Below, in pieces: positions 12,101 to 56,968 of a DNA stretch of 64,000 nt. Source of the stretch: Ulota crispa (Eukaryota > Streptophyta > Bryopsida > Orthotrichales > Orthotrichaceae). The stretch spans positions 6,076,001 to 6,140,000 of the forward strand of contig OY987250.1 in assembly GCA_963920765.1 (NCBI GenBank), in the 5' to 3' direction. Positions within the stretch are counted from its first letter, which is position 1; every line of letters begins with the position of its first letter. The position numbers and the translations under genes were made by a program. The notes beneath the pieces were generated by a model that saw only the letters and a list, made by a program, of their open reading frames with translations, was not told the DNA's origin and searched no databases.

Positions 12101-14137
12101 TAAATATCTCACTCGTTTTTGTGTAGATTGAGCTGAATTTTTTACTGTGTGTACCTATTGTAGTCTACTGTAAGATCTTATGGTTGAATTCTTGTAAAAA
12201 ACTTCAATTCTTACCTTTGTACTTGCTTCCCCAAAAGTGGCAGTTTTCTATGTTTTTCACAAAAAAATGGCTTGGTCCTTTAGGGGATAATGGTGTTTAT
12301 ACATCATGGTCTCAAAATATGTATCCATATTTGGTAAAAAAAAAGGATCAAAGCAACAACACAATACATCAAACATACAAGAAGAATGCCAAATTTCAAT
12401 TGTGAAATCCTAAAAAATTCAAATTGCTTAAGAAATATGCTTGTATTGATCTCCTATACGGTAGCAATATAATTGTTGTATTTGGAAATCTATCAGTGAA
12501 ATGGAGCTATCATTTCAATTTTAAAATTTGTTATCCTATAATTAAGGCCAATTCTTGATTGTTTTCATTGGTTGGATTTTTCGTAGAATTTTTCAAATTT
12601 CTTGTAGAACTATTTTAGGGAAGCAAATAAAATGGGTTTTTCTACCCTTGTTGACCACTTAGCTACACCTTGTAATTGGTATTTTTATTCATTTTGAGTG
12701 AAACTAGTATTCTTGGAAAGGTGGGAGAGCTAGCTTTCTACAAATATAAGGCTCTTCTCAAGCAAAGCTTGTATGAAGCATAAAATCCAAAACCACAAAA
12801 GCATGAAAAACTAGAAATTTCCCACCTACAACTCACTCAATCATTATAATATTTCACCTCCACCGGTAAATTTGGTTGAAATTTTGACATTTTACAACAA
12901 TTAAGGTGTTCTTCCCATTTGTACGGTTAGATTATGCAAAGTGGACTCACATTTGATTCACCTACACATTTAAGTTTACTGACAAGGCTTCTTATAGGCT
13001 TTGTGAAAATGTGAGTGGATTTTCAAGGTTTAACCCTTAAACGCCTAGGCAGACAGGTTTGTATGATGAATGGCAAAAAAAAACACTTTGTAGAATAGGA
13101 AAAATTCTTTTTCATTTGATTTTTCTAGAAGTGATCATGGAAATATGATCCATCATGGAAAGAAAACTAAAATCTTACTTAAAGCACTCATGTTTTTAAG
13201 TAACCCAAATTGTGAGAAGATTCACAAACATGGTGTTAGGTCCCATGTTATCATTTTTGCAATTTTCATGAGGACAACATGCATTACTAACTTTTGCAAT
13301 TTTTGGAAACAATATTATAATATGTGGACACTTGCCACATTAGTAAATTGCTACTATAGAAGGCAGTCAAAGCTCAACGTTTAAAGGTTAACTCTTAAAC
13401 GTCAAAAGAGAACAAAAAATGTCCCTTTGTCACTACAAACACTTTAAACTACATAAAAAGTTGAATTTTACTTCAAAATTTTTACAAGTGCTCACACAAG
13501 GAGTGCACTATACATGTTGTTAGTGGATAACGTGCATTCAAGCCTGTATAAGATGGGGGCTATGTAGGTAAAAAAATTGATTTCTGTAGGGTTATATTTA
13601 CCTAAATTTCTAAATTGTGACAATTTCATGTACCCTAGACTTCATTTGAATTAAGTTTTTGTGATATTTTTGTATACCCTATGTTCATTATAAATACACA
13701 ATGACACAAATAAAATTTACATACATGTAATGAAAGACCAAACACTTCAAAACATAAATTTTAACCAATCACATAATACTTCAAACAAGAGAAAATAGAA
13801 TTCATGGAAAAGCATATAGTATACCTAAAAGCATATTTGTAAATTCTATATAGGATGAAGGAAAAAGTAGTGAAATCCATTCCACTTCAACCACAAACCC
13901 CTTTTAACCCTAGCATATGTCTAACCAAATCACAAAACCTACCGATATTGTTTTTGTATTGCACTAGCATGAAGAAATGAGCTTAGATGAAGACATAGAA
14001 TGGACATGAACTTTGCAATAGGTGCTTTTCAAAATATGCATGTGTTTAAAAACACAATACAAAGGCATTTACATGCATAACATGACTACAATTTATAGTG
14101 GTAATTGGTCTTACAACCAATTTCCACAGCTGCAGTA

Positions 14138-17018
14138 TCATCTAAACTCTAGATCTTGTTGCTGTTGACGCCGCTTCCTTGGCGCTACGTCTTTCTTGTC
14201 ATCGTCTTCCTCCGCAACATTGTCTATGAATTGCAAACCTTGAATATACACAATTAAGTAGGCAAATCAACAAATCAATGCACTGCTACAAACCGCCCTT
14301 CCAAGTTGAAGTCAAAAACTTGATTGATAATATTTATAATGTGATTACATTGCTGATTACAATCATCAAATAAAGCAATCTTTGACGGAACTTCAATCAA
14401 CGTGTATTCACAAATAAAGTGATACTCAAATTGCAAGACAAAAACAAGTGATCTAGCTAGGTTAACAATTAAATAACCCGTTTGTAAGACCACTAGCACA
14501 TATTGTGAACAATGTAATGCAATACCATGGATATTAACATAGAAGATTTTCCAACAGTACCAAATTGCAAATACTTTGACTACTTGTCAATGCATAAGAA
14601 CCTCTCGACAACAGGAGCGCTGCTAACAATTTTAGTGAGAAGTAACACATAGACTCAAAATGAGATAGAAATCCTAATTGATGATGAAAACAGCTATGTC
14701 AGTAAAAATGCTCTGTTTGAGAGAGTAGACCTTGTACTTCCGCTTCCGACCCTGCTCCTCCTCTTCTTCCTCTCAAGCAAAATTTTCTTTGTCTCCATCT
14801 CTACCAAAACAAAAAACAGAGAGGAGAGGTAGTCATTAACAAGAAAATGTGAACATCCGTCAAAAGCTTGGCAAAACCAAATTTGCAAGGATTTGTCTAG
14901 TGTTGTATTCCCCTACCACAGCTCCTATCAAATACAATTATCTTTTGTTTCATTCCATTTTGTAATTGCTAGTTCAACTGTCTTAGGATATGTTCACACT
15001 TGGTGTTAAGAGTGGTAATAGCAAAGGAAAATTAGATGCATTTGAACACACCTTTAAACTGCATTCATATTGCTAATACCCCTCTTAACTTCAAGTGTGA
15101 ACATACCCTTAGATTATTTTAGTTAAAGTTCTATTTTTTTTAGAATCAATTCTTAAGATATATTTTGACAAAGCGAGGTTGAATAATGCGAAAAAGTTCA
15201 AATTATTACTGAACAAAAACAACTAAAATGGCTTTACTCCATATTTCTAATCACCCTGCCATCAAATCTCTCAAACTAAACTCTGACAAAGCATTTTTTT
15301 CAAAGAACAATAAACTTGTAAGAGAATGTTTTATAAGCTAAAACTACCAAATACAACTAATGCTACATCCCTCCTAAACGATCATTGCTTTGGAATATTC
15401 TAACTAGTTGCAACCTTAGACCCGAGCTCTTTGCCTTGAAATATACTCTTTAGGATTCAATTTTTTGAAAACTTTGTTCTTAAGCTATAAGTAAATACAA
15501 CGCAATTCAAAAAAAAATACAAAAGTTATAATTATTATCAAACTAGAAAATATGTTTTCCATAATTGTGCCATCAATCCTAACAATGTAAAACTTCAACA
15601 AAATTTGGCAAGAGAAAGCTCAAATCACTGAACACGTACAACCAATGTTACTGCTCTGGAATACGATTCCAACCTGTAGCAGCCTCAGAGCCGAGCCCAT
15701 TGCTAGATCCAACATACTTGCAGAGCTGCTCCATCCAAAGCATTGACGACAGGCAAGGTGCCTTCGGCTCCACGGGCTCCTTGACTCCCTCGTTGGCTTC
15801 CATGGCTAAACTTGGCTCTTCCTCCTCTTCTACCTCCTCCAACTTTGCCTCTTCCTTGTTGACCTCCTCTGCTTTGTCATCATAGTAGTGTTTTGCCATT
15901 GCAAAATCCTAAAGTGGCTTAGAATCGCCTGGCTGAAAGCAATAGATGGCACAAGAAGATGATTAGAAGGGGCTTTACATTGTTCAAGTTAATTGTTCTT
16001 TGTTCAGTCCATCATGTACTATTTTGTAATACCACATACGGCCTCCAATTTCTGCCGTGAAAGCTCTAGACCTTCAAATCTTATTGCTCAGCTTCTTCCA
16101 CAATCTTTCCACTTCAGCATCCCAGGCAGTGTCCCAAAACGTGACCGCAGAATATTGCCCCTCAGAAAGATAAACACAATGACTTTGCACACCACCAAAG
16201 AGCTGGAAAAACTATTGCAACGCATGCCTCTGTAAACAAACCCCACAAGGCATCAATCAAGCGAGCTAATTAACTTAACACACCAAGTCTATCAACTGCA
16301 TTGTTTCTATGACAAAAGTCATCACATCACAACTCTGGAAAAACCTTCTCTCAACAAAATTTGCGACATCCCATGCAATTTCACACTATGCCATTAAACC
16401 TCGTCAAATTGCCACCAAAATTAGTAAAATCGACCAGAATTTGCCTTTGATTGTGAGAAATTCAAATTGAGAATTGATCAGCCAAAAATATGAGGTGCGC
16501 TTGATGTCAAGCTTAGTGCACAAACGCGGAGCTTACTTGGATGCATGATTGTTCAAGCTCCAACCAAAACCTCCAAAAAAACCTCCAAAACAATTCCAAA
16601 AGAATTCTAAAAGAATCGAAAAGTAGCCACCAGCAAAGCGTTGCGCAGATAATACGATGAAGCAAAGCTTATGTTCTGCCAAAACCAACCACTGCACATT
16701 CAGCTATAGCAAACATACTTGGCCGTCATTCACCACTCTTAGGTTCTCAATACTTTGTCGCTGACTGGTGGCCACGATCTTTGGATGGTCCAATTGCTTA
16801 CGCTAGACACACAAAAGTTAGAATAGCTACCACGGTGTACTCAAGTCGACAATACACCACTCACGGTAGACAGCTTGCAGAGCACGTTGAGAGACTCATC
16901 TTGATGTTCTAAACGTCTAGATTTTTTTGGACCAGCAAACCATGTTGTGCATCTCGCTCTCCAGGTCCGCAACCTTTGCATTCAACCCATACACTTGCAT
17001 CCTGGAGCACCACTTGTT
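14138..17018 (-). pseudogene. Second element-borne gene, Lys/Glu-rich, right copy
   Basis: Mirror image of the gene at 3375-6255, with the same exon-like blocks, the same acidic exon (15648-15899), the same basic piece (near 14750) and the same terminal PRKRRQQQQ block (about 14138-14224). It lies downstream of, and in the same direction as, the right transposase-like gene. Keeping the same order and orientation in both copies supports one two-gene element. Confidence 0.4.
14982..15112. mobile_element. Short hairpin MITE in right arm
   Basis: Exact inverted copy of the hairpin MITE at 5280-5411, carried along with the arm duplication. It shows that the MITE inserted before the arms were duplicated. 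Confidence 0.7.
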
Positions 17019-17379
17019 CAAACAAACAAACTGACAATAGCCAAACCCATTGCGATAGAGGGAGAAGTGGAGAAAGAGGGGGATGGGGTGTGAGCATACA
17101 CAAATCCAAGTTGGGCAAAAGGGAAGAACTCAAAACACTGGCAGCCAAAAAGAAGGCAAGGTGCAGGAACAGAGCTTCTAAGCCCGCGCAGGGCATAAGC
17201 TTACAAGGAAGCAAGCACCTTGACTACCAGAGCTTGCCGTGTCGGGCAAAATTGTACAAGATCTATGCAAAAAGCAAGTCTAGAATGCTGTTTAGCACAA
17301 AATAGTTAGGGTAAAAGATTCGTTTTATAAGATTCTATAGAAACAAAGAGACTTGGCAAAATATTACTGGAAAATGTTG

Positions 17380-20300
17380 TTATCCAACAAAATTGTTTGA
17401 AACATACTCATTCAAGTTTTGTGCATCCTCACAATCCAATGTATACACTCCACTCTCAAAATTATACAAAAGACTAACATTAGTGATTATTGCATCTAGA
17501 CTAATCCACTTAGAATTTGTTAAGTCATACTTGAATTTGTATTGCCCAACCACACTAGTATAATAATGGAGTATGACTTCAATGTTCATGACTAGGACAC
17601 CTTTCTTACCTGCACTTACCACCCACTTTGCAAGATCTATGGGTTGCTTCAATGACCTCCAAGAGTTTGCGCCAGCTCGCCTTCGCATCTTTTGAATTCT
17701 ACCAATCCACCAAGTACCCTCATCCACACCAGAATTGGTAGATACCGGTATGCCAGCCTTCCTAGCTCAAGATTTTCCCCTCTTTTTTGCTGCAGTCATC
17801 GTGGAGGCCCTACTAACTATGGAACGCTGCAAAAAATAAACACCCACATCCGACCCAATCCCAACAAAACATGTATTGGAGCTCTCTATTGCATTGAGGT
17901 ACTCCTCACTATTATTAAAATACAATGACTTGTGCACTCTAGTTAGCCTATCTTTGGACAAGAAAGGGTTACCATTTAGTTGTCCTGCAAGAGTTGATTT
18001 GAAAATTCTGTTCTCATCAAATTGGACAAAGGCTTCCACTTTAGCTAGAATAGGGATTGCAGAAACATGTTCTTTGTGATGGGAAAGCATCTCCAAGATA
18101 AGATCACATGTTTCACTCTCCAAAACTATGAGTGCTGGTATGCCATCATCAAATACATTGTCTTTGACGTTGTCAGCCGTTACTGGTTCACCTTCACCAA
18201 GATCTGCATGTCGTTGCCAATCCTCTTTGTTCTGGTGCATATCCTCTTGTAAAACTTCCATGTCGCCGTCTTTGCCACAAACCGGTTTAGAACCTGTAGC
18301 ATAAACAAAGGACTGCTTCTCCGCTAGTTCTTCAACCCATGGTTTTTGAAACCAAAGCTTGCTTTTTGCCGTGGCTTGAGGATTTGGTGCCATATTCAAA
18401 CTGTTAATCATCCTTTGAGCCTCCTTCAAACCTTCTTTCAATGCAATGACAATGTCCTCATTAGAAGAAATTGTGTTATAATCTCCTAGATTAGGTTCAA
18501 CCTTGTCATTTTCTAATTTGTGCAACTTGCCCCAAATGTTGTTCGTTTTATTGTGTGCCCTCCCAAATTTCAGACCATTCTCTCCAAATTCAATTTGCGA
18601 CAAGTGGTTAATTGTGTTTGCAGCACCAAGCAATTCTTGGAAATCATACGCCCTCTCCATTCCTACCATCCCCCCTACCTTGGAGAAAAAAACCTCACAA
18701 GAATCACTGCCGATTAGGTGTAATGGCATAGCTAGGTGCAGGTACATGTCACAAAAATGACAAATAAGCAAAACAACAAAATGACAAGACAATTGAACAT
18801 CCAAAAAACATTGTTGACTAACACAATGCAAGTTAGGATTTATAGCTTCTGTATTTCCACTAACCCCATGATTCCCATGACTCATCCACAACTTCCAAAG
18901 TCTGAAAAAAAAAAGACACTTTACTTGCTTTCACAATCCGGGCACATAGGTCATGACATGGAGATAGGAATATATTGATGTACTCTGCACAAATTTCTAG
19001 GTACATTTCTGTACCTAGAGTTTGCTCCCAATGCAAATCATTGCAGTCGCAAAGAGAACATAAACAAGAGCAAACTTTCTCTGAACATAACCATTGCGCA
19101 CTCCTCCAATTCTATCTATCACTCTTGTCATAGTCTTCTTGTAGTAAACCATGCTCATCTACTGTAAACCGGTTAAAAACTTGGCAAATATGTTGATGAA
19201 GTGCCATATCAACACCTAACCAAAGAGTTTTGACATTACTATCAAGTGGATTTAGTAATTTCTTCCCATTATGAATGTAGTCTTAGTCATGCAAACCAAC
19301 AGCATCCCCAACAGCATTCATTGTTGAGCTAAAAACCCATCCCTCCCAATCCACACTTAGCCTACACCCCTTTGAGCTCCAATAATCAGACAACATCAAT
19401 TGTTGCCTTCGAGAGTCTCCATTGCTAGCGTGTCCAATAATTGGACCCACAGCAGCGTAGCAATGCTTTGTCCACAACCTCTCAATTCTGTTCCACTGTT
19501 TACCCACCCCGAATCAAAACAACCACAAGTACAACAAGCAACCAACACCAATCAAGGGAGTTTAGGGTGCAAAGGATTCACAACAATGACTCTTGCAAAC
19601 CCCCCCACCTTGTCCAATTTAAAAGAATCCACCATTTTGTTATGACCTACCTCACCGACTCCAACAACGGGTTTGTAATTTGTTATGCAACAATGATTTT
19701 CCTTTGGCCCACAAAAACCTACAAGCGTATCTGTCTAGGCTTCCCATGCAACTCACCCTCTCACCTTGGTTTCATCTTTAGCTAGAATGACAAGGACAGG
19801 ATCACTAATTCCATGTGCAGCTTTAGCATCGATGTAGATGCTAGCAACTGACTAGAAAATCTAATCATGCTCCCCTGAAATAAATGTGACTCCCTTTCAA
19901 GATTCACAACAAACACTATCATAACTAGGACCAGCAAAATTAAGAGAAAACAAATCACGAAGACGTCGCCCCCCATAGATCCTCATTGCCTGTGAAAAAC
20001 ACTTGGTATTTTCACTATACCAATTCCCTAAATCCTTACGGTTCAAATTAGCAACAACATCCTTCATAAAGTCCCAAAGTGCATGCTTCCCTCCAAAGGC
20101 TCCTATTTTGTGCGCATTGATAATATTGTTACAAAATTTAATTAGACTATTATCTGAAGAGGCATTCAAGGCACTTTCACGAAGAGTAGGCCTTTGTGCT
20201 TTCAATTGTGCAATGCGTGTCCTAGCATGCCAATAGTGCAACTTCTCTAGCCGCAACTTCTTTGACAAGTTTTTAGCGTGCTTAGAAACTTTGTAGACAG

Positions 20301-23300
20301 ACAAATATCCTAATCGTATGCTTGCACCAGTGCTTCAAAGACCCCTCTTAATAATAGATTGTTCTTCCCTTTTAACTCTCATCTTGAAATCATTTTTGAG
20401 GGGTATGGAGGCACACTTAGGGCAAGTCAGATTTGGAAAAGGGTCTCCACACAATGTTAAACGACAGCACTTCCTATGACAAAATGCACCATTCACCTCA
20501 ACAGCAAACCCCTGAACTAAAAATTGAATGAACAAGATGTGGTTTAGGGTACCACTCCACACCACAGTGGCGGTCATTTAACAAAGCATTGATAGGATAA
20601 TGTAAACCACTGTACTCAACAATTGGACCCCTAAATCCATAACACATGAAATTAGTAATGGCAGCTTTATCAATAGAGTTAGGGTTACTTGGCAAATTGG
20701 CTGATGGAATTGGTAAGAACCACGAGTAGAGGGCACCTTGAGTTTACAAAGAACTGCTTGTGGCAAACTTGCTTGGGCGCCCAGGTCGGCCAGTCCTTGC
20801 CGGCACTTTTGCTGCTTGTTGTGAATCCTCCACCGCCTTTTGATGTCTCAATCCACTCAGATGATTTTGTAGATTCACCTCCAACGTCTTTCGTGGGGGG
20901 CAAAGGCTCATCATGTCCCTACAATATGGGCACCTCACTTTGAATCAGTAGCACCTGGTATTCTTAGCAGTCAAGTTTCCAAGCACCTTCAATTTTAGAT
21001 GCCCTTCCAGAATAGTGGAATTCACACTCTCCAAGATATCCACCCCCTCCAAAATCAAGCCCTTGTGGTCCTCGGGAGTCAAGGTAATTGAACTACCATT
21101 TCTGGCCTGCGATTGTGGGTGGTCTTCAAAGTTGATACTCTTTGAAGCCTAGTGATTTTGAACATGCGCCGTGCTTACAATATGCGACCTCCAAAAGTTG
21201 TTGAAAAGATTGTCGATTTGAGCTTTGGTGTGGTCTTTTGTGCCACCACCGCAATCTTTCTTGCATTCAGCACACCATAATTTCACCATGCCACAGCCAT
21301 TCAAGTCGAATGACTTCAGCCACCAATTGTGATTGTCCAAGGCAACCCGTCTCAATTATGCCCTCATCTTCTTAGCATGCTCCAAGTAACGGTCCATAAT
21401 TTCAGTGGATAGAAGCTGAGACTTTAAGGGGCGCTCCTCAACCTTGGCTATGTCTGGACTACCGCTCACCCTTGAAGAAGCAACAAGCACATCTTTGGCA
21501 TCTTCCATGTCACCGTGAACATCAAAGGCTGAAACTCCTTCCGGAGTATCTATGTCAAGTTAAACCAAAACATTAAACATATGACATATTTAATGCCATA
21601 AAAATAGATCAACAATAGTATTTAAGATGTCATGGCATGCTCTCTTATTGGACGTTTGCACTGGTAGGTGAAAGTCCAGCAATAATAGATACATCTTTCA
21701 ATGATGTGATTTTTTCCAATGACAAATGAAATCTACCTCACCATTCAGTCCATCAAGTAGCAATAACAAAACAAGTGAAAATTATAACACAACAGAGCAG
21801 AGAGACTTGATCATGCATAAGGGCAATTACATGTCCCATACCAAGATACAAAAGACAAACAATGGACCCGTATTGAAAAGAGAGGTAGGAAAAATGAGTA
21901 AGTCTGGGCACTACATAACATGCTAGAGCTAGTTGGAGCATCGTATGTTTGTCTTGAAATAAGTACAGAATTTTATTTGAACATAGAAACACTTAGAAGA
22001 GAATGCATAGGTGTTCCATCAGTTAAGTTAACCCTTAAACGTCTGAATGTGCCACTCTGACCAATACAATACAAGGTGTTTTCTTGTATTTAGAATGGAT
22101 TCACACCTTTACTACATTTCAAATCAACAAAGAATTTGGAGAATAGATCAATAAAACTCTAATGAGATATTTGAGATCTCAAATTAAAACTTCTTGTTGG
22201 TAGCAAATGCCAATTATACGGCAGCGTACGTACTATGCCATATGGTCATTTAAAGGTTAAGAGAGAAAGGAGGGCATTTAAGCAACAAAATGAAATCTAA
22301 GGGGCCAAAAATATTACATTGGAGGAACATTATGGGGATGGATATAGGCTTTCTAGAATTTGAAATTGAAATTCCAAGTACCTCGAACTATTAAAATTGG
22401 AAATTTACAAAATTAGCATGCCTAAATAAAAAGCAAGGTCACATCTATAAATGCTGGTTTTTCTAGGAATACTCAAAAGTTCAAGGTACCTTCAACCGGA
22501 TCTGGAGATGCTCTTTTAAATTCTGCAATACTCCCTTTATCCTTGCTATTTAGGATTTCAGATCCAAAGAATCTCAATATTGATTCTTGTCATTGACAAT
22601 TAGGATTTTCTCAAAACCTGCACTTTGAACATGTGGCAATGGGCTTTTTCAGAAGTACTATGCCTCCAAGTTGTTTGCTTGTGCAAATTCTAGCAAGTTT
22701 AGTAAGTTTGGATTTTCTATAAGGAAGAAAGATTCTCTGTGTCAAGGGTTCTCACCTCTACGTTTGATCATTTTAAGCTCATGTGCGTATTTTCTATAAA
22801 GGAAATTTATTTGTTCTTGTTAGTAAATGAATGAGGATCTTAAAGCATTGAAGAATTTTGTATTATAGATACTATATGAAAGAATTATGAAGTAATAAAG
22901 TTTTTTTAGCAAAATATTCAAAGTTCTAAATTGCTGTCATTAGGTACACTATATATTTATTAAGGAATGCTTGCTGAAGTGGTGATTTTTTTTATTTTGA
23001 ATATTTCTATTTTACCAACCAACCAAGCAATGAAAACTTAGGCTTAGTTTGACTTCCTGGAGAGTTTCAACGATTGTTGGCACAAGGGTCCGCAATTATA
23101 ATTTCAATTACGTCTTGGTTTTAGGATTTGGTCTGGATAGTACATCTCGTTGAGAGCCCTAGGGCATCCAATCTTATATTGACCGTTTGAGATCACCAAG
23201 TAGACAAAGGTCCAATTCATCAATGAGTACTTAAGAAAGAACCAAAAAATCGCTACTCCAACAAAACAAAAAAATCTTTAAAAGACTTTACCTTGATCTC

Positions 23301-39776: not shown

Positions 39777-40150
39777 TAAGGTAGTACACTCAAAAACCAT
39801 TCACTCATTTTGAACCATCTAGTAGCTTGTTCTGAAATGGTGCATTGGTGGTTCTTATATTAGCCTCTTACAACTCATTGAATGCTTGGAAGAAAATTTG
39901 TTTTTAATTGCAAGAGTCAATCATTCTCCTTGCTTCCTCAAATCTTTTCACAACTTGCAAGTGAACGGTTCTTGGAAGGTCTAAGGTTAATAGTAGGGAC
40001 CTATGATACACGCACTTTGAAAATTCATAAGTAACTCAAAAATGCTTCAAAAATTATGAAACAACTTATATTACATTCAGCATTTATTTCTCTTTGTCTG
40101 AAAAATGAACTAAAAATCCTTCCATCCACGGAAGACCATGAAAAAGAGGG
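39777..40150 (-). repeat. Dispersed repeat family, copy B (inverted)
   Basis: The reverse complement matches 49242-49617 along nearly its whole length. Shared words include GAACCGTTCACTT, AGCAAGGAGAATGATTG, GGTTCAAAATGAGTGA and TTTGAG with ACTACCTTA at the end. It is also related to copies A and D over the AAAGAGAAATA and GAAGCATT segments. Confidence 0.75.
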
Positions 40151-42008: not shown

Positions 42009-45000
42009 ATGGGCTCCACAGCCTTGGAAGACACTGAAGTGGGCCATGACCAAGTTCACCCGGTTGCCAGCCCGGACTACCCGGTTGCTAGGAGATTGAA
42101 TTTGAATTCCGAATGCTCCTCCCTGGTCAGATTCTCAGGATTCTCTTCCGTTCTAGCAAGGACTCGCATGTTCAGCTTGGTTATGCTGGCACTCATTCTC
42201 ACATGGCCATGTGATTTCGGTGTTGACGCTGTCAACTTTACCTTCAATGGCTTCAAAGAGACTGACGTTTATTTAGAGGCTAGTAGCAGCTGGATTTTGG
42301 ATTCCAACACCAGTTGTATCTACTTCGACCCCCCAAATGCAAGTGGATCGATCAGCGTTGCTGGTCGATTTCTGAATCAGGGCCTGGTGCAAATGAGAGA
42401 TCCAGTCTCAAAGAAGGTCAAATCTTTCAGTACCACATTCATTTACCAGATACGGATCCCACCTGGTAATAATGCGACAAGTCCTGGTATGGCTTTCATT
42501 ATAGTTCCAGACAACGTCACAGTGGGAGCTCCGGGAGACTACATGGGACTTCTTACGGCTACCCCAAAGAATTACGAGTCTGATAATCATACATTTGGCG
42601 TGGAGTTGGACACTTACATGAACTCGGAGTTCAACGATCCTAGTGATAATCACATTGGTATTAATTTGGCAAGCATGAATTCTACTTACACTTGCAAGCC
42701 TGACTACAATTTTTCCTCAAAGAGTAAGGACATATACCAGCAGATCTGGATTGACTATTTCGAAGTTAATTCCCGCATGGATATCTCCTATGCATTGTCT
42801 GGGCAAGGTAAGCCTCGAATGCCGCAAGGATCTCAGAGAGGGTTGGATTTGTCGTTATTCAATGAGAACATGTACATCGGTTTCTCCTCTGCGAAGGGGA
42901 AGGAGAGTGATAATGTACCCTACGTTTGTGGGTGGAGCTTCAGCAACGATGGCCCTCCGACTCCTCCAATTTTTATTGGCTTGGATGTCCTTCAGGCATC
43001 TCCTCCATCCTCACCCAGACTACAGCCTCCAGCTCCAGCTCCAGTGCCTCCACGTCTTACTAAAGGAAGGAAGACACTCATTATTTCCTTGGGATCTCTT
43101 TTCACTGTCATATTCATATTCGTATTCGTAAGTTTGTTTTGTTGGTGGAAATTTATTCGACCTCCTTTTCGTATTCTCATATCTTATGCAGCCGCAGGAG
43201 GTGAAGATGGATCCAGGGAAGACTTTATAAGGCACCTAAATCAAAGAATTATGAAGAAGAGGTGGTTGAAGCCAGTGTTTCGTGTTAAAACCTTTAAAAT
43301 TGATCAGAGGCATTCAGGTGATTCAGATCTCAATCCTTTTGAGCACCTAATCTATAAGGGATTGGCGAGATACGATGTTGAGATCGTGGTAGTAACTAGG
43401 GATTTTTTTGAATGCGAATGGACTATGCTAGAGCTGATAACATTAGCCGAAGTCTCATGGAAAGAGCTCGGGAAAAGCTGTCGAATATTACCCTTGTTCT
43501 ACAAACTCACACCAGAGGAAATAAGTCGTTATCTGGCATCAGGATATTGGGAAGCTCATTGGGAAAATATGACCAAAGGAAATCTATTTCTCTCTGATAG
43601 GGCGAATGAAATTGAAAAAGCAGTGAAGTGGCTTACTACACAGCCGGGCATTATATACTATTCTTCAATTCATAGTGGTGAAAAAGAGTACATAGAAGAC
43701 GTTGTTAAGGCAGTCTATAAGATTTTGTACGAAGAAAGGTGGTACCCATTTTTTTCATCATGTCTTGGAGGGGCTATGACTGCAACCGCAAAACGGGGAA
43801 GTAAACGGCTTTTGGCTGGTGTTGGAAAGAGATGGAATCGTGCAAGAGCTCCTCTGAGAGCTGCAAAGGATATTGGCGTGATGACTTACGTCCAGAAGTT
43901 GTTGCATCTATTGTTTGCACTGTCTGGGCTGCTGATGATATTCTCCTCTGTCATCCTGGACAATTCCTTCAATCACCAACCTCAACGGTTTATAGCTTTT
44001 GCAATATTAGCTCCTGTTTTGATATTTTTGGGAATTCTAGCCTCTGGATGGTTTCCGCGCATCCCTTTACGGGTCATTGCATATTTGAAACGACGTGGCT
44101 TTCTTAAGCATGTATCAGCTTGTAGCCCTTGGCATGACAATGTCGTAACCGATTTCTGTGGTGAGATCTGCACTCTGGAATCCTTGGAGCAAGTCGAAGG
44201 CACAGAATTTCTTGAGCTCCACCAGCCGCTTCGAAGATTTCTCCACGGTAGCTCGATTTCTCCGGAAGGAATTACATTGGATCCGGAAAGTCAAGACTTT
44301 CAAGGAGCAGCTTCTACTTTGGAGCTAGAAGGTGAATGCCTTCACCAGATATCTACATTGCAGCCACAAAATGAAAACTCGTCGAGTTCCTGTAGTAGTC
44401 AAGATTACAAGGATGCGGGTATGAGTGAAATGATCGAAATTCCCCCTACAACCATGGTACCAGGCCAAGCATCATTGCCAAAATTTCAGGAAGCACCTTT
44501 TCCCCGTGAAGATATTGTTGTCTCAACTGATCATTCTTCCAAGTTTTATGTTTTGGATAAAGCTCGTGGACCCACGCTGACAATTGAAGGTCCAATGATA
44601 AACCTCCGTAGACTGGAAGTGCAAGTTTGGAAGGATACATCGTCCAGAGATCCCACTTTTGACTTGACTTGTACCTTCAGAAACAAAATGACAACGAAGA
44701 AGTTCTTGACTACCCAAAGATTACAAAACTTGGCTCAAAATATGTACCGATGGGTGGACATTCCTCACCCAATTGGAATCAACGAATCGAGTGACATATT
44801 ACACTGCCTGGCAATCCAAGATATTCTTTCGGAGTTTACAAAAGATGTCTTTTCATTCAAACCCTTTCATGTTCAACACCGTTATTTAGCAGGTTTGTGG
44901 ACGGTCAGCCCCTGGATCGTATTCTCATATGTTGCTGTTTGGAGTTTTTTGAGTTTATTTCCTCTTCTCTCTGACAGAAAAAGCTACTTCTTCCTGGTAT

Positions 45001-45239
45001 CCTTGGTTGTCCTAGTACCCTATCTGTTCACCTCAAAGGATACAAATCCTCTTAATTTTTATAATTTTCGAGAACTCTTTTGTCCAGTTTTCATACACGT
45101 ACGTGGTTTTAGTAGGCTGTACTTGTCTAGGTCTTTGTTTATATGGTGCAACGAGTTCCGGAAGCAAAGAGTTGTCAACCCCGAAATCTTTTGGATTGAT
45201 GAAGAGTATTCAAACAACTTCTCGGATAGGTTGCTTTGA
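42009..45239 (+). CDS. L-type lectin - transmembrane - TIR receptor-like protein
   Basis: A single open frame of 1076 codons from the first ATG (MGSTALED). A second ATG at 42168 (residue 54) begins directly with a hydrophobic signal peptide (MFSLVMLALILTW) and is the likelier start for a secreted ectodomain. Residues about 77-325 are a legume-lectin domain: it starts VNFTFNGF and carries the metal-site segment VELDTYMNSEFNDPSDNH (residues 198-215) with conserved Glu, Asp, Asn, Asp and His, plus about eight N-glycosylation sequons. A Pro-rich stalk precedes a membrane helix at about 355-379. Residues about 386-540 are a TIR-like domain: FRILISY at the start and ECEWTMLEL with Glu475 in the position of the catalytic Glu of TIR NADases. 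The tail has helix pairs at about 629-682 and 960-1010. By family knowledge the lectin binds a glycan outside and TIR signals inside; the combination is unusual, since plant L-type lectin receptors normally carry a kinase. Confidence 0.85.
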   Translation: MGSTALEDTEVGHDQVHPVASPDYPVARRLNLNSECSSLVRFSGFSSVLARTRMFSLVMLALILTWPCDFGVDAVNFTFNGFKETDVYLEASSSWILDSNTSCIYFDPPNASGSISVAGRFLNQGLVQMRDPVSKKVKSFSTTFIYQIRIPPGNNATSPGMAFIIVPDNVTVGAPGDYMGLLTATPKNYESDNHTFGVELDTYMNSEFNDPSDNHIGINLASMNSTYTCKPDYNFSSKSKDIYQQIWIDYFEVNSRMDISYALSGQGKPRMPQGSQRGLDLSLFNENMYIGFSSAKGKESDNVPYVCGWSFSNDGPPTPPIFIGLDVLQASPPSSPRLQPPAPAPVPPRLTKGRKTLIISLGSLFTVIFIFVFVSLFCWWKFIRPPFRILISYAAAGGEDGSREDFIRHLNQRIMKKRWLKPVFRVKTFKIDQRHSGDSDLNPFEHLIYKGLARYDVEIVVVTRDFFECEWTMLELITLAEVSWKELGKSCRILPLFYKLTPEEISRYLASGYWEAHWENMTKGNLFLSDRANEIEKAVKWLTTQPGIIYYSSIHSGEKEYIEDVVKAVYKILYEERWYPFFSSCLGGAMTATAKRGSKRLLAGVGKRWNRARAPLRAAKDIGVMTYVQKLLHLLFALSGLLMIFSSVILDNSFNHQPQRFIAFAILAPVLIFLGILASGWFPRIPLRVIAYLKRRGFLKHVSACSPWHDNVVTDFCGEICTLESLEQVEGTEFLELHQPLRRFLHGSSISPEGITLDPESQDFQGAASTLELEGECLHQISTLQPQNENSSSSCSSQDYKDAGMSEMIEIPPTTMVPGQASLPKFQEAPFPREDIVVSTDHSSKFYVLDKARGPTLTIEGPMINLRRLEVQVWKDTSSRDPTFDLTCTFRNKMTTKKFLTTQRLQNLAQNMYRWVDIPHPIGINESSDILHCLAIQDILSEFTKDVFSFKPFHVQHRYLAGLWTVSPWIVFSYVAVWSFLSLFPLLSDRKSYFFLVSLVVLVPYLFTSKDTNPLNFYNFRELFCPVFIHVRGFSRLYLSRSLFIWCNEFRKQRVVNPEIFWIDEEYSNNFSDRLL

Positions 45240-45717
45240 TGTTTATGGACATGTTGATATACCGGCTACTCCAATTATCCAGAGTTTCCTCATGAACTGT
45301 CGAGGTCGGGTAGACCCACGTGACCCAACGAACCGCCTACAACAGCATAATTATAAACTCAGAGTAGGATTTGACAACGCTATAAAGGATACCTACACCA
45401 ATGTAGTGTTGTCTTTCTACGAGAACGATGATCTACTTGATAGAAAACACTACTCTTCGGTAAACATCAGGCGACTGTATTTGGTCGAGCAGCTATTTCA
45501 CTGTTACTCAGATTCATTTTTTGGTGGATATGTGGAGAGAATATGCCCTGGTTTTTGGTCTAGGACCTACCTAGCTCATTGCCCTAGGTTTCTAGACATC
45601 TGCCACAGAATTATCAGTGCGGATTCGGATCCAAAATTAGTGAGAGCTAGAAGAGCGTGTTCCTCCAAGTTTATCATTGGCGTACCTTTTTGGTTTTCAA
45701 ATCCTGAAGTTCAATGA
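45240..45717 (+). pseudogene. Out-of-frame C-terminal continuation of the lectin-TIR gene
   Basis: Just where the receptor frame stops (45237-45239), the +1 frame reads on for about 158 codons: CFDVYGHVDIPATP, then LRVGFDNAIKDTYTNVVLSF, then LVEQLFHCYSDSFFGGY, ending FSNPEVQ then stop. Its composition looks coding and its length is unlikely by chance. The simplest reading is a one-base frameshift (mutation or sequencing error) near 45225-45240, so the intact protein would be about 1.23 thousand residues. An intron bridging the two frames is possible, but I see no convincing donor and acceptor pair. Confidence 0.5.
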
Positions 45718-49241: not shown

Positions 49242-49617
49242 CCTTTTTCATGGTTTTCATTGTGGATGGGAAGATTTTTTGTTCTTTCTTCAAACAAAGA
49301 GAAATAGATGCAAAATGTAACACAAGTTGTTTCATATTTGTTGAAGCATTTTTGAATTACTTATGAATTTTCAAAGTGCATGTGTCATAGATCCCTATTT
49401 ATGATCCCAAACTTTCCAAGAACCGTTCACTTACAAGTTGTGAAGAGATTTAGAAAAGCAAGGAGAATGATTGGCTCTTGCAATTACAAACACCTTTTCT
49501 TTCATGCATTCAATGACTATAAGAAGTCAATTTAAGAACTAACCACTGCACCATTTCACTACAAGCTACCCGAGCGGTTCAAAATGAGTGAGCGCTTTTT
49601 GAGCAAACTACCTTATT
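49242..49617 (+). repeat. Dispersed repeat family, copy C
   Basis: Matches copy B (39777-40150) in inverted orientation over its whole length and copies A and D over the 5' half (AAAGAGAAATAGATGCAAAATG, GAAGCATTTTTGAA, TTTTCAAAG). No ORF. Confidence 0.75.
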
Positions 49618-49960: not shown

Positions 49961-50020
49961 GCGTACCAAGTTATAATGAAGCATACCAAGTTATAATGAA
50001 GCATACCAAGTTATAATGAA
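49961..50020. repeat. Three tandem copies of a 20-bp unit overlapping the M6 peptidase stop codon
   Basis: The unit GCATACCAAGTTATAATGAA is present at 49961 (GCG variant), 49981 and 50001. The minus-strand stop codon TAA of the M6 gene (50013-50011) lies in the last unit, so the repeat array forms the start of its 3' UTR and supplies its last codons. Confidence 0.95.
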
Positions 50021-53000
50021 GCAGCACTAGAAGCAGCGATAGGAAGAGCCTTAGAGCGCAGCTGATCAGGAGAGCGCTTGCTGTCACTGACGCTCACAGT
50101 GAACGTCATGACGTCCATGGGGTTACTGATCTGCGTGATGGCCACACCGGTGGGGGCGCCGTTGTTGGCCTTGGTGGACGGATTGCTAGTGGAGTTCACT
50201 AGACGCACGATTTTGGTGCCGGGAAACGGGTCGCCAGCGTCGCCGCGATCCCTGTCGCTCTCGAGGTCGCGGGCGCCGTCGCTCTGCAAAAGCGCCACCT
50301 TGTAGCCCAGAGTCTCGTCGGTGTTGTCGTCCTTGGTCTCGTCGATGTGCCACACCAGTAATCCTCCCGCGGGCAAGTCGGCGTCGCGCCCCTTCTTCTG
50401 CCGGTTCTCCACCAGAAAGTACTCCGACTGCGGCGCTCCGTCCTTCCACAGCTTCACCACTCTGTCCTCAGCAAACCACAATTTTGCTTGCATTTTAGCT
50501 ACAGGGCGTAGAAAAACAAAACATTCCTCGCAAACCTTCAAATTTTGTTAAAATTTGTTAGTATTTGCCTCACCTGCGTGCATTCCAAGGTGCACGACCT
50601 TTAACCTTTGAGAATCGAGACCACCCATAAAAAACCTAATCGAGTTTGCATTTGGGAGTTTATAAAGTTTCACTCTTACACCATATTAGGTAAATTGGGA
50701 AAAATGGAGGGTGCTCCACCTTATTGCATGCAGTAAATGTAGGCATAACTAACGTCATATTAGGTAAATTGGGAAAAATGGAGGTATCATTTTGTACTCC
50801 ACCTTAAACTCAAAAAGTTACCTTAAACAAGATTCAAGGATATTATATTCAATCTAAACCACTATAATTTTTTCCCTCTCAAATTTCTCCTCTCAAGTGA
50901 GGACACGTGTGCCAAAATAACACTGGAGCTCGGTTTGAGGGGATCACCTCAAACCTTCAGGAAACCCTTCAGAAGTCCCAAAATGTGCTCTTTTGCCCAC
51001 TTTATCTAATATGGTGTTAACTATAACTCAAAGTTGTAATTATTTGAAATTCTTGAAGGTAATCACCAAGACTTCAATATTGTACAAGAAAGTGGACGCT
51101 TGTTTTTTGTAATATGCTAAATTATACATAATGACAAAAACAGTAAAAATCCTAAAATGTACTGTTTTTCCCAATTTACCTAATATGGTGTCTACCGTAC
51201 CGTATACATAATAACAATAATGATTTTTTTGAGCATTTGAACAATTTTTATCTTGTGGCTTCATAGTTAGCCCATTTTTGTTTTTTTTTCATTTTCACTT
51301 GTTCACAATTCACTGAGTGAGTGAGTGCCGGTTCTTCCCAATCACAGGGCCTTAGAACGACGAGTGGACACCTAAACCGCTGGTATTTGAAGAACTGCAT
51401 GCACTAGATTTATGCACTCCCATTATATTTTCAAAATCCCTTAACATAAGCAAGCCAACAGTTCCTTCTGGTGGTCCTTTGTTGTTTTTATCATTTTGGG
51501 GATTTTTCCCAAGACCTTGTGGAACAAATTTCCACGGTAGGCTTGCTAGCCGCTGAATTGAAAAACTCCCAAGCAACGAACAATTCAAACTTGGTTGTTG
51601 TTTTTGAGTTAACTTTTGCAATTCCGGGCTAAGGGCCAACTTCCATGGGCAATCCGAATTGGACAAAGGGAAGGAACAACAAACAGGTTGGAAGACCACA
51701 GCATAGGAAAAAGGAAGTGGTCTTCAGGCAAGTTTCTAGCGAGAAGCACCAGAATCTCAGGAGCCGCACTTTTCTGGTACGGCTTCTCTGATAGTGGAAC
51801 ATGGTGGAAAATGATGATGACGGTGCCGATTCCGATTGGCCCTAAATTTGCTGTTACTAGAGTTTCGTAACTGCGCAGGTAGACTGACGTTTCGTAAATT
51901 TTCTTGGCGAACATTTGCCTAAATCTTACCTTGAAACCGGCTTGGTGACTTGAACACTAGAAAAAATCTCTGAAAAAATGGATGAATTTGTTGAAACCCT
52001 TCCCAAGTTTTAGTAGAATCGTCAGATTGTGGATGAAAGTTACTAAAATTAGTAGATTGTATGGATGAACATGTAAACATTGATGATTCTATTCAATTCT
52101 ATCCAAATTTTCCTTACTTGCTCACATGGTGGGGTGTGTGTTGCTCAAGGTTTGAGGAAAAAATTTAGCTTCACCGGCTGAAATCTGATATTTCCTAGTG
52201 TCAACCGGATTTACATTGAAATGCACCAATTATTTTCTGTAAAATTTCTAAATTTCTACTATAAACATACTATATTTAGATTTTTTGGAAAAATGGACCA
52301 ATTTTGTAGCTAATTTTTTAGCCAGTAGTTTCAAATTTCAACAAAATTTTTTGCAATTTCAACCGGTTGCCAGCCTGCCAGCCTGCCACTACACTAACCG
52401 CCTGTTCTCCCCGATCTCCCCGATCTCCCCGATCACTGGTGTCGCTCTACCAACGAAAATCCAAGAAAAAATACGCTGGACTGACCGACTAATAATAAAA
52501 GCGACGAACGAAACCAACGAACGAAAGCGAAGTACGGAGAGAGCTGAGTGGACGTGCTTGCCTGTGCTGGGTTTTGACGTCCGGGAGCGAGACTTTAGTG
52601 GTAGCGGAGGGGGTGACCACGTCCACCCAGCCCTGGTTCACCTTGCACCAGGCGCACGGCACCGACGGGTTGTCCTCGTTACCGTTGTAGCTGCCGGCCG
52701 CCATGAGGCACCACACTCCGATGCCCTCGGACGTGTAGTCGGCGTCGTAGAGGTCGGGCCACCCGAAGGCCAGGTGCCCCAGCTCGTGCGCGCACACCCC
52801 CAGCTTGCAGTCCCCCGGCACCGTCAGGTACGAGTACACCTGCGCAATGTACGGAGGAGAGCCGAAAAACAATAGAAAGTCAGCCAAATGAAATGGGAAT
52901 GGGAAAATCCAAGTAAAATTTACAAAAAAACTGTTAAAAACACTAATTTTTTGAATCTTTTTAAAGTATATAGGTAATACAGTAGAACTCTTCTAAATTG

Positions 53001-56000
53001 ATATGGTGTGGATCCCAAGAACTAGACTAGTTTAAGTAAGTTATTAGTTAATTTTATGAAAGTGTAAATGAAGTGACCTTGAGATTAGAGCCAGGATAGC
53101 ATTAAGGAGTACTATTACTATTGAATTAATTGTTTTGGTTTATGACTACCGTATGGTCTGACAGTGAGATTTGTGTTATCTATTAGATTATAGAGGATAT
53201 CAGTTTAGAGAAATTCTACTGTAACCGATGTATGCACTAAAAAACAAGTTGAAAATGAGAAATGTAGGATTTTTGCAGTACGAGCTCAAAATCTCCCAGC
53301 ACACTGCACCTGCGTGCCGTCGGCGTTGTAGGGGCCGCCCGCCAGCAGCCACTTGTGCGACCAGATGTCGGTGACGTTGTTGGTGCGCTCGGCGCCCATG
53401 CCCGCGTGCACCACCACGAACGCCTCCACGTACCCGTCCCCGTCGTTGTCGTACTTTTTGAAGTCCACCTTCGGGTTGGCCAGCACCGCCGCGTCGCGCG
53501 CCATCACTGGCGCGTTCGGCGTATCATCCCCCGTGCCGTACTGTCCATTGGCGTAGTACGTCATCGGATGCGGCATCCGATACGGCCCCACGACTTCGCC
53601 CTGCATGCGACGTCACCGACCGTGACCGTTCAGCTCGTTTATATATGGATCGAGTACCGACACTGACATACATGTATGCGTCATCAAACGGTGACCGGTA
53701 CAGAGATTTTAGAATGGAAATGAGCAAGCTTGATAGATGTGTTGCGGATATGTCAGCATGCCTTATAGTGCACTACATAGTTCATGATACTACACTGATG
53801 ATAATTATGATACAACACCATATTCGTTAAAAGGAAAACCATAGGTGCCATTTGTTTTTCACCTTAATCTAGGAAGTCCCCTTAATTTATTAAAGAGGTC
53901 ACTTGAAACCTGCTTAATGGAACTTTTGTCCAAAATTCGGGACTTTTTCTCCAAAAAGAACACATTTTTGGATGATATATATCTCATTTCATTGGAAAAC
54001 AATCAACGAATTCCCAATTCAATGATTATGGCATTTTCAAAAAAAAAAAGCGAGAAGTTCCAATTTGTAAGAATAGTACCTCTTTAAAAAGTATGATATT
54101 ATACTAAATGTCAATAAACGACTAAGTCACAACAATTTTACAATTATACAACTACTATGCATTATAGTCATGTAGTTGTTGTGTGGTTGTCGTGCAATTA
54201 TAATTGTAACCTTATAATTGTAACCTTGTTGTTTATTGCATGTTTTTCTTCCAATGGTGGTAGGCTGGTTAGCGGACTGGTGACCTTTTCTGAGGTACAA
54301 GTCGAGACTTCCATTACGGGTGGGACGCGGGAGGCATCAAAGTGTCATCGCAAGATGCAAGAGCTTGGCAAGGATCAAGTCCAATGAAAGTGGAGTCCTG
54401 GTATGAGAGACACGAGTTTTGACCACGGAAGTGGCCATGGATCTTATTTCCAATTTAAGCTTGGAACACCATATATATTTGTTAAATTGGAAAAATTGGA
54501 AAAAAGAGTACATTTTGGGACTTTGAGGTGACCACCACTGACTGAGTTCGCAGCGTTTTTTCGGTACACGTGCCCTCCGGTGAGAGAAGGAATTTGAGGG
54601 ACAAAATCTTTGAGGGACAAAATCTTTGAGGGACAAAATCTTAGTGATACCTTTGAATATGGTAAGTTAAAGTAACTTTTTAGGTTTGAGGTGGAGTACA
54701 AAGTGGTACCTTCGTTTTTCTCAATTTAACGAACATGGTGTTTTGGAGATGATGATTCTTTCAACTAACTTGTGTACTTTATATGTGCTTACAGGTTATA
54801 GTTTTGGAATTGGTCTCTGGAGGAGGTTTAGCGTACACAACTTCGAACTGGGAGGCTAAGACACATGCACGGTATGGACATTAGTGGGCATTTAGAAAGT
54901 AGAAACTTGTAGACTGGCCATTTCCAACAAGGGGTTACTGACTTACTGTACGTGTGGCCACTGCCATTTCGCTTCAAATTCTTTATCTAAAGGCAGTATA
55001 GTAAATACTGAAAGCAAACAGGTGCAACATGCTAAGCTAAAGAACAAGGCAAATTTCCATTGGAGAATACCGGCCCAAACAATGTCGCTCGATCCTTTGC
55101 TGAGCATGTGGCACCCTAAGACGGGGCATATGGCGAAGTACAGTGCATTGTGAACCGTGAGCAGGGCACTTAGTCGTGTCCTCGCTGTGGTGGGATTTTG
55201 GCAAAGACCAACGGTTGGAGAGCACCAAAACTTAGGGGTAAAACTAAGGGAAAATTTCATGGATACCCCTGAAGTTTGCAATATTTACATAGACACCTCT
55301 GCCTTTTCAGAAATTACTCAAAAACCTTTCGACCATAATTTTGGCATTTATTTGTTGTGCTTGTACTTCCTTCATGACCAATTCCTTCATGACCAATGTT
55401 GAAGAAGGAAATGTGATGAAACAAAAATAAAGAAACAATGTGTACACAAAGGAGAAGGGAAGTAGCATACACAACAAACAAATGCTTGAAAATTTTGGTG
55501 GTCAAAAGGTGTGTGTATTTTCTGAAAAAGCAGGGGTATCTATGCAAATGTTGCAAAGTTCAGGGGTATCCATGAAATTTCCCATAAAACTAAAAGCATT
55601 ATATACCGTGGGGTACTGACCTGGATAGTGACGGCGCCGTTGGAGACATCGCTGTAGTAATCATGCACGCTGTTCGTGTTCTCCTCGAACCACAGCTTCG
55701 CAAAATGCTCCTTCGTCTGCGTCGCCTCGAATTTCTGGTCGGAGAAGTCCACCAGTACCACGATCACGTTCACCACCCCTCGCACCGGCGCCCTCTCCGC
55801 CAGTTGCGCCGCCAGGGAGGCGCCTGGATGGAACGTCCTCGACGGGCGCACCACGCCATCGTTGAACCCCGAGCGACGGTGCTCGATGGGCCGGATCACG
55901 GATTGCAGCAACGAGTTCTCCGGGGCTTCGGACAAGGACTGCTTCAGTTCGTGGAAGCGCCGAACCAGTTGCTTCCGAACCTCCGGCGCCGGGGCTACGA

Positions 56001-56055
56001 GACATCTCTCGGAGTAATGAGCCACGATGTTGTTTGGCATGCGAGGCTCCGCCAT
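50011..56055 (-). CDS. M6-type (immune inhibitor A-like) zinc metallopeptidase, four exons
   Basis: The exons are 56055-55621, 53600-53310, 52839-52562 and 50461-50011. Phases agree and give 484 codons. The start chosen is the ATG of MAEPRMPNN; an in-frame ATG at 56106 would add 17 residues. The propeptide-like first exon ends in VVLVDFSDQKF and YYSDVSNGAVTIQ. Exon 2 has the KKYDNDGDGYVEAFVVVHAG segment typical of M6 enzymes. Exon 3 carries the zinc motif HELGHLAFGWPD (residues 260-271) and a Met-turn (WCLMAAGSYNG, Met288). Exon 4 has SEYFLVENRQ and GGLLVWHID. All expected catalytic residues are present. No signal peptide is visible, which is odd for a family usually secreted. Exons are GC-rich and introns AT-rich and MITE-filled. 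The family is mainly bacterial, so an ancient transfer is likely. Confidence 0.85.
50678..51191. mobile_element. Nested ACACCATATT-family MITEs in the third M6 intron
   Basis: The outer element has its left end ACACCATATTAGGTAAATTG at 50678 and right end CAATTTACCTAATATGGTGT at 51191. A second complete element, about 50753-51016, lies inside it (left CATATTAGGTAAATTGGGAA, right CTAATATGGTGT). TAAC flanks the inner copy on both sides, consistent with a short target duplication. Confidence 0.75.
53815..54065. mobile_element. MITE, ACACCATATT family, in first M6 intron
   Basis: The left end ACACCATATTCGTTAAAAG is clear. The interior matches the copy at 40975-41281 (AAAATTC, GATATATATCTCATTTCATT, AATTCAATGATTATGGC). 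The right terminus is decayed and its position approximate. Confidence 0.7.
54466..54741. mobile_element. MITE, ACACCATATT family, with internal 16-bp triplicate
   Basis: Left end ACACCATATATATTTGTTAA, right end AATTTAACGAACATGGTGT. It shares ACATTTTGGGACTTT, TTTTTCGGTACACGTG and GAGGTGGAGTACAAAGTGG with the copy at 57651-57902. Inside, TTTGAGGGACAAAATC is repeated three times in tandem (54591-54642). It lies in the first M6 intron. Confidence 0.8.
55247..55583. mobile_element. Foldback MITE, GGGGTATCCATGAAA type
   Basis: Left arm GGGAAAATTTCATGGATACC and the reverse complement of the right arm GGGAAATTTCATGGATACCC continue to pair for about 70 bases (CCTGAA, TTTGCAA, TTTCAGAAA). The element is about 337 bp, lies in the first M6 intron close to exon 1, and has an internal duplicate of CCTTCATGACCAAT. 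A fragment of the same family is at 28497-28557. Confidence 0.8.
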
Positions 56056-56106
56056 GGCTTCAGATAGTGCTCTGTCACAAGTCAACACACCCAACAATCG
56101 GTTCAT

Positions 56107-56968
56107 GATAGATATCAGAAAACACGGTGTGGGAATTATTTCTATATGAAACTGTTAAATCTGAACCGCAGATGGTGAAAAAGGACCAACAAACAAATCA
56201 AGGAAGCCACTGACAAAAAAACGCTCCCAAACATTATAATCTGGAACGAAACCGAACTATGTATATCCTTGGTGACGTTGGATATTAGGATTGAAGAGGG
56301 TCTCTTTATCACTATTAAATGCTAGAGATGAATACCAAAATCGGAGGTCAACTGTTTCGTTCAGTATCCGTTAAAACACTCACTGTTAGAAATACTGAAT
56401 TCTAGATGTGATGAGGGAATGGAAATCTTGATGAACGAAGTACCGACAGTTCGGTAAGTGGAAGGCTCCAGTGGTTGTCACGACCGATCAACTACTGGCT
56501 AATAAACTAGTGTATTCCTGAGCTTTGCCAAACTCGAACTTTTTCTCAATCTCCAGTATTCAATCAGTGCCTGAAGTTTTCTCCGTTTCAAAAATTGTGC
56601 CTAACTAAGAACCTCGGCAGCATAAATCTAATACTTACTAGTCTCCCTCGCACGGATTACGAAGAGTTTCAACTTCAACAAGCTATTGAGGAACCTTCAA
56701 GTCACTGGTGAATCTAATAATGCATTCAAGGTTTGAGAAAGTCAGGCTTTGTAAGGAGTTGGAAAACCAGAGCAAAATCGCGGTTTTTCAGTATTTCTGC
56801 AACATGGACGGAGTGGGGAGTGACAAGAGGTGCTAACTTAGATGAGGAGGGTGAAGCGTAGAAGTCTCATACCGTTCTGGCACTCGAAAGAAATGTTGGT
56901 TGTGACTACTGACTAGGCTTGGCGTTGAGAGCTTTCGTAAGTACACTGACAGTGATGCAATATGTAAA

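Follow-up and report, generated by a model that had tools for sequence, protein, structure and literature searches.

Legume lectin, membrane helix and TIR joined in a single protein: a candidate plant receptor family with members in Ulota crispa

Described lectin and TIR proteins compared with the Ulota crispa locus

Known plant surface receptors signal mainly via kinases, and known plant TIR domains act mostly in cytosolic receptors. The gene considered here lies in a 64,000-nucleotide stretch of the Ulota crispa genome (contig OY987250.1, positions 6,076,001 to 6,140,000; hereafter the window, designated C9:6076001-6140000 in the searched assembly of 274.8 Mb and 157 contigs) and unites a signal segment, a legume lectin, a membrane helix and a TIR in a single forward-strand frame. 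On the lectin side, the closest described proteins are the L-type lectin receptor kinases (LecRKs, e.g. LecRK-I.9/DORN1), which share the signal segment, the Lectin_legB ectodomain and the membrane helix; whereas the LecRKs carry a kinase inside, the window protein holds a TIR instead, and no protein kinase family was matched by Pfam in its 1076 amino acids (aa) up to an E-value (E) of 1. On the TIR side, TNLs and TIR-only proteins possess a homologous TIR with a catalytic-type Glu; the TNLs, however, contain NB-ARC and leucine-rich repeats (LRR), for neither of which a Pfam match was obtained in the 1076 aa or in the separately scanned stretch behind the TIR, and for the window protein a membrane anchor and an ectodomain are predicted. 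The predicted succession of ectodomain, membrane helix and inner TIR is that of the animal Toll and Toll-like receptors; the likeness is one of layout only (common descent was not sought), and the ectodomain of the Toll receptors consists of LRR, in contrast to the Lectin_legB ectodomain of the window protein.

Combinations of TIR and lectin within one chain have been described in other forms. In the Arabidopsis TIR-Nictaba or "TIR-lectin" proteins (PP2-A5, PP2-A8), to which portions of PMC12355970, PMC10329053 and PMC5485960 ascribe a role in defence, the lectin has the Nictaba/PP2 fold and the TIR comes first; the window family has the reverse order and a legume lectin, and no Nictaba/PP2 domain was matched by Pfam in the whole protein or in separate pieces. 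The catalytic and sugar-binding functions of PP2-A5 are described, in an excerpt of this literature, as yet uncharacterised. One part of a table in PMC5485960 counts four TIR/Nictaba proteins in Arabidopsis and, over five genomes, has legume-lectin rows only for Legume and Legume/PK. According to an excerpt of a nucleotide-binding site (NBS) survey of 34 species (PMC11126693), TIR and Lectin_legB do occur in one gene model in a TIR-NBS-Lectin_legB-Pkinase class; this class differs by its NBS and kinase, by the TIR standing first and by being species-specific. Another section of the literature reports a single soybean protein uniting GNA, TIR, NB-ARC and LRR (n=1; PMC6272470); a receptor survey (PMC10834447) divides receptors, in the section concerned, into those with and those without a kinase, so that lectin-TIR proteins would be counted there as L-lectin receptor-like proteins. 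No description of a legume lectin-membrane-TIR receptor was found in the open-access literature searched (subscription journals, InterPro and supplementary tables, such as those on lectin domains in PMC6362431 and on 26 Lectin_legB combinations in PMC11096116, being outside the scope), in agreement with the sequence-only reading of this DNA, in which no plant family of this order was known. Known domains are here arranged in a receptor plan that the literature searched does not describe for plants.

Lectin, membrane helix and TIR in three genes of two sources

The frame 42009-45239 (forward strand) comprises 1076 codons without internal stop and holds the elements that had been read from the sequence, i.e. 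signal segment, lectin, helix and a TIR-like domain with Glu475. A chance open reading frame (ORF) is ruled out: after 1000 mononucleotide shuffles of the ORF bases, the longest in-frame open run had a mean of 79 and a maximum of 192 codons. Next in length among the stop-free runs of the window are two of 387 codons, each in a different arm of an inverted repeat. The elements of the frame are as follows.

42009..45239, + strand: whole open frame of 1076 aa, from an N-terminal stretch ahead of the signal segment to the post-TIR membrane module
42168..42230, + strand: predicted hydrophobic signal segment, residues 54-74 (hydropathy peak 54-75)
42231..42959, + strand: legume (L-type) lectin domain, residues 75-317 (Lectin_legB 6.6e-44; alignment with PDB lectins)
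42960..43073, + strand: Pro-rich linker, residues 318-355 (read from the sequence)
43074..43130, + strand: membrane helix, residues 356-374 (hydropathy 2.62)
43158..43733, + strand: TIR domain at residues ~384-575, with Glu475 encoded at 43431-43433

The same order was found in two further genes. The first is a paralogue on the minus strand of another contig of the genome (C2, 19819775-19822339), with 53% identity over window residues 33-349 and 38% over residues 333-615; joined in phase across a predicted 639-bp GT-AG intron within the Pro-rich linker, its pieces give a protein of 641 aa that is collinear with window residues 5-598 (40% identity, E 2e-131) and terminates shortly past the TIR. 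The C2 TIR reached 23.8 bits in the whole chain and 26.2 bits as exon piece with PF01582 (cut-off 21.3), and 27.1 and 30.5 bits, respectively, with TIR_2 (cut-off 28). Met54 is an alternative start codon in the window ORF; C2 has no Met near the signal segment. The genome search with the window protein scored all of its 27 candidates and gave 20 matches, and adjoining lectin and TIR matches occurred at the window gene and C2 only. The second relative came from the protein database, where a single one of the 559 candidates scored against the C2 TIR region matched at E <= 1: P0010, one predicted protein of 538 aa (ENA source, contig of 57,296 bases) that is 49% identical to the window protein, runs from a signal segment through lectin and helix to the TIR and lies above the cut-off in all three families (Lectin_legB 1.4e-42; TIR_2 33.1 bits, cut-off 28; TIR 30.8 bits, cut-off 21.3). 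P0010 was not seen in the genome of the window by the search with the window protein (none was made with P0010 itself). The Pro-rich linker is longer in C2 than in the window protein and missing from P0010.

One chain thus holds lectin, membrane helix and TIR in three genes of two sources. The protein database already annotates P0010 with both Pfam families, so automatic listings of this combination may exist. Another search of the database returned P0009 (see below) as sole match among 6376 candidates; as the search requires shared 5-residue words, the small number of further matches is weak evidence of rarity. Eight stretches of prokaryotic genome contigs and 34 of viral contigs fitted a pattern, and none of them was confirmed.

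The lectin of the window protein was recognised by Pfam at residues 75-317 (E 6.6e-44; Lectin_L-type_dom below cut-off), and the best solved legume lectin in the PDB matched residues 56-312 (9.2e-16). In the PDB alignment, E199, D201, N205, D210 and H215 coincide with the legume-lectin metal site (the roles of the corresponding residues are assumed by us), in line with the intact appearance noted from the sequence; C2 departs at the positions of Y203 and N205 (N205 to D). The loop-A Asp of the monosaccharide site, which we take to be sugar-contacting, is replaced by Pro in the window protein (Pro159), C2 and P0010; the lectin kinases L005 and L006 of the same genome retain Asp at this position (by eye). 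The residues therefore give no support to the "glycan sensor" of the sequence-only reading. The LecRKs resemble the window protein in this respect, as their carbohydrate-binding residues are poorly conserved, and ATP is the reported ligand of one of them (both from a section of PMC5560540); in view of these points and of the Pro shared by all three members, the ligand may be something other than a glycan. The neighbours of the lectin part in the protein database were LecRKs or kinase-annotated proteins in 8/8 matches (scoring limited to 8000 candidates). In the genome itself, lectin frames running into kinase motifs were seen at L005 and L006 (one frame) and L007 (over two), and TIR frames with NB-ARC-like stretches at L010, L011, L012, L013, L026 and L027; these calls were read by eye, without family search.

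The TIR nature of the inner domain was corroborated by profile comparison. A profile of the three family TIRs (A4) and one of three TIRs from elsewhere in this genome (A5) aligned in hhalign with a probability of 99.6 (E 4.5e-24, 166 columns). Compared with PDB sequences at E <= 1, A4 gave 24 matches, 22 of them TIR proteins by name (best 3e-11; plant TIR 3jrn 4e-8) and the remaining two an unnamed protein and a nucleoporin at 0.38. The isolated TIR piece of the window protein matched 12 distinct PDB sequences at E <= 10, i.e. 11 TIR proteins by name and one unnamed protein aligned over the same stretch; some of these PDB names are ones that we take to denote TIR proteins. Within its own genome the window TIR had 11 matches at E <= 0.01 (itself and C2 included), the best outside the family being L010 (1.1e-9), a Pfam TIR (TIR_2 2.8e-17). 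Judged by these profiles, and with its relatives C2 and P0010 above the Pfam cut-off, the window TIR is homologous to TIRs. Glu475 and Trp471 are invariant in the window protein, C2 and P0010; the Glu is of the catalytic type and conserved across the family.

The TIR tree comprised 10 rows (three family members, seven from the same genome) and the lectin tree 12 (three family members, five from the same genome, four LecRKs picked from the eight database matches); rows were hand-picked, with the TIR loci L014 and L024 left out (L019-L023 are second copies of used loci or of L014) and seven further lectin matches of the genome search excluded from the lectin tree. In both trees the window protein, C2 and P0010 stand on one side of a branch (support 100/99). 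As the lectins group together and the TIRs group together, the data fit a lectin-TIR fusion that arose once. Lectin identity is 55-58% for all three pairs; TIR identity is 57% between C2 and P0010 and 40-42% between either and the window protein. The nonsynonymous (dN) and synonymous (dS) divergences between window and C2 (lectin: dN 0.31, dS 1.52; TIR: dN 0.50, dS 1.28) show amino-acid constraint, as read from the coding sequences, on both domains.

Proposed mechanism and competing explanations

The explanation favored here, with a probability of roughly 0.6, is a small plant family with a secreted L-type lectin, a membrane helix and a cytosolic TIR, in which clustering by ligand would evoke a NAD(P)+-cleaving TIR signal. 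What we infer is topology, clustering, NAD cleavage and immune output: the lectin part would be exported, and the basic stretch after the helix would hold inside the TIR that the helix (residues 356-374) precedes; the lectin would bind an apoplastic ligand, not necessarily a sugar, upon which the receptors would cluster; the TIRs would meet under the membrane and cleave NAD(P)+, which would yield a nucleotide-derived signal in immunity or stress that involves neither the kinase of the LecRKs nor the NB-ARC of the nucleotide-binding LRR receptors (NLRs). The kept Glu475 and Trp471 make it plausible that the lectin is wired directly to TIR enzymatic signalling. According to an excerpt of PMC7282519, the catalytic Glu is kept in about 90% of plant TIRs and self-association is required for their NADase activity; a portion of PMC11218826 reports that TIRs of non-flowering plants act enzymatically in N. 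benthamiana, with moderate-to-strong cell death in 11/20 TIRs tested. The placement of N-glycosylation sequons is compatible with an outside lectin and proves nothing: eight of the 12 in the window protein lie up to residue 234, and all sequons of C2 (three) and P0010 (two) fall within the lectin part. Of the cell-surface receptor proposed in the sequence-only reading, the domain order in one chain is borne out by three genes from two sources; glycan sensing finds no support in the residues.

Several observations weigh against this explanation. Four of the window sequons are situated in parts read as cytosolic or membrane, and the intron over which lectin and TIR are joined in C2 is a predicted one. 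The window TIR stays below the Pfam TIR_2 cut-off of 28 (13.7 bits in the whole protein, 18.1 as isolated piece), carries two additional residues behind its first strand and diverges in the loop that follows the second, and its branch in the TIR tree is long (0.91 versus 0.36 and 0.42 in the other two members). The inner order of the family conflicts between the trees (C2 with P0010 in the TIR tree, 93/88; window with C2 in the lectin tree, 87/86), neither being at the starred level of the tool, and dS is close to saturation for the window/C2 pair. The AlphaFold model of the TIR, built on a 2-row alignment, had a confidence (pLDDT) of 40.7, too poor for use. Its succession of elements would suit a TIR apart from the last strand, which is missing from the model: a strand, a helix and a strand are followed by two helices, a strand, a helix and a further strand, and then by helices only. 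In a fold search of this model against the PDB no match reached E <= 0.001 and no row among the best 50 of 731 was described as TIR. The failure of the structure prediction is ascribed to too little alignment depth, and the fold search was treated as uninformative, not as support.

Behind the TIR the window protein continues into a module that was seen elsewhere only in P0009, a JGI metagenome protein of 736 aa that starts with a membrane helix and has no lectin or TIR match in the predicted protein; window residues 599-1070 are 48% identical to it. The module contains hydrophobic helices at 628-649, 661-679 and 966-988. No Pfam family was matched by residues 582-1076 up to E 10, no NCBIfam match was obtained for the module or P0009, and no repeat was detected between the halves of the module; the whole-protein Pfam scans gave sub-threshold scores for Ni_hydr_CYTB (window, 10.8 bits) and for Tetraspanin and DUF3614 (P0009, 16.4 and 12 bits), and AlphaFold of the module yielded a pLDDT of 34.8. 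In the genome it occurs at this place only (two matches, four candidates scored). The similarity to P0009 changes frame near the end of the ORF.

43803..45236, + strand: post-TIR module, residues 599-1076 (P0009 similarity and hydropathy)
45219..45228, + strand: frame switch of the P0009 homology (tblastn alignment broken off at 45218 and taken up again at 45229)
45229..45717, + strand: C-terminal tail of the module, conserved but out of frame with the ORF (48% to P0009 residues 568-735)

Since the P0009 homology continues past 45218 in another frame, the stop at 45237-45239 removes a conserved tail, the last ~165 residues of the module sitting beyond the frame change. Of the span 42009..45717 originally assigned to the gene, the ORF covers the part up to 45239; the remainder is coding by its homology to P0009 and lies in the other frame. 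The frame change may reflect a fault in the assembly, a short splice or a recent shift of the frame itself. Taken from its sequence, the window copy is a derived member with a faster-evolving TIR and an extra membrane module. Because of this previously unreported module (599-1076) and the frame change, it is more derived than the simple Toll-like receptor envisaged at first; C2 and P0010, on sequence grounds, fit that plan better.

These features also underlie the alternative that survives best, though it appears unlikely: the window copy might be decaying or re-purposed, with a relaxed TIR, a module captured by fusion and a truncating frame change, so that only the C2/P0010 type would work. 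Decay is favored by the frame change at 45219-45228, beyond which the tail has kept 48% identity to P0009, and by the divergent TIR with its longer branch; yet 1076 codons are still open, Glu475 and the metal-site residues are intact, the lectin dN/dS is about 0.2, and an error in the assembly or a short splice may account for the frame change itself. Less probable still is a TIR that, as in most animal Toll-like receptors, serves upon clustering as a scaffold recruiting other TIR proteins or partners and is not a working enzyme. The divergent, faster-evolving window TIR, a layout nearer to the Toll receptors than to known plant TIR proteins and the further TIR proteins of the genome as possible partners (NB-ARC-like frames by eye) would suit such a scaffold, whereas the Glu and the nearby Trp are retained in all three members and Glu-keeping plant TIRs are generally enzymes (as stated in part of PMC7282519). 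That lectin and TIR are separate genes wrongly joined by the gene reading is hardly credible and was set aside on C2, P0010 and the tree grouping: the intron of C2 does separate the lectin exon from the helix-TIR exon by a predicted splice, but the window frame is uninterrupted, P0010 is one predicted protein, the same order with intervening helix recurs in three genes, and the lectins and the TIRs each group together.

Beyond the favored explanation of a membrane-bound lectin-TIR family, it may tentatively be proposed, at a little short of an even chance, that these proteins constitute a new plant immune receptor class of independent Toll-like layout, in which an apoplastic ligand at the lectin would directly activate a membrane-tethered TIR enzyme without an intervening kinase or NLR; the post-TIR module of the window copy could be a built-in membrane effector. 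A conserved chain with a TIR behind a surface lectin would merge the surface and TIR layers in one protein and would be a convergent counterpart of the animal Toll receptors. The family would also offer a route to asking how plants without EDS1 read the products of TIRs: EDS1 is said in a portion of PMC11218826 to be missing from seed-free plants, and an excerpt of a fern survey (PMC12512272) reports that some ferns have it.

Surroundings of the gene and other loci

The lectin-TIR gene is flanked by an inverted repeat of 255 nt (39875-40129 / 49262-49516, 85% complementary), possibly a dispersed mobile element. Downstream, on the minus strand, the frames of an apparently intron-split Peptidase_M6 gene (immune inhibitor A type) extend over 50011-56154; the family match (3.7e-11) lies in 52492-52992, and the flanking frames 50011-50547 and 55540-56154 may belong to the same gene (by eye). 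A second, perfect inverted repeat occupies window positions 1-6898 and 13495-20392 (arms of 6898 nt, 100% complementary, 6596 nt between them) and stems either from a very recent duplication or from an artefact of the assembly; each arm contains the same 372-aa frame (1508-2626, plus strand; 17767-18885, minus strand). Rfam gave no match over the window at the gathering cut-offs.

Among the other TIR loci, L011 (2935-4777) and L012 (minus strand) have, directly upstream of the TIR frame, a frame in which two Cys-rich zinc-finger stretches of ZZ-like type were seen (by eye); together they possibly represent a ZZ-TIR-NB-ARC receptor. At L010 (6469-7463) a tandem repeat was observed, with more than 300 codons open in all three forward frames.

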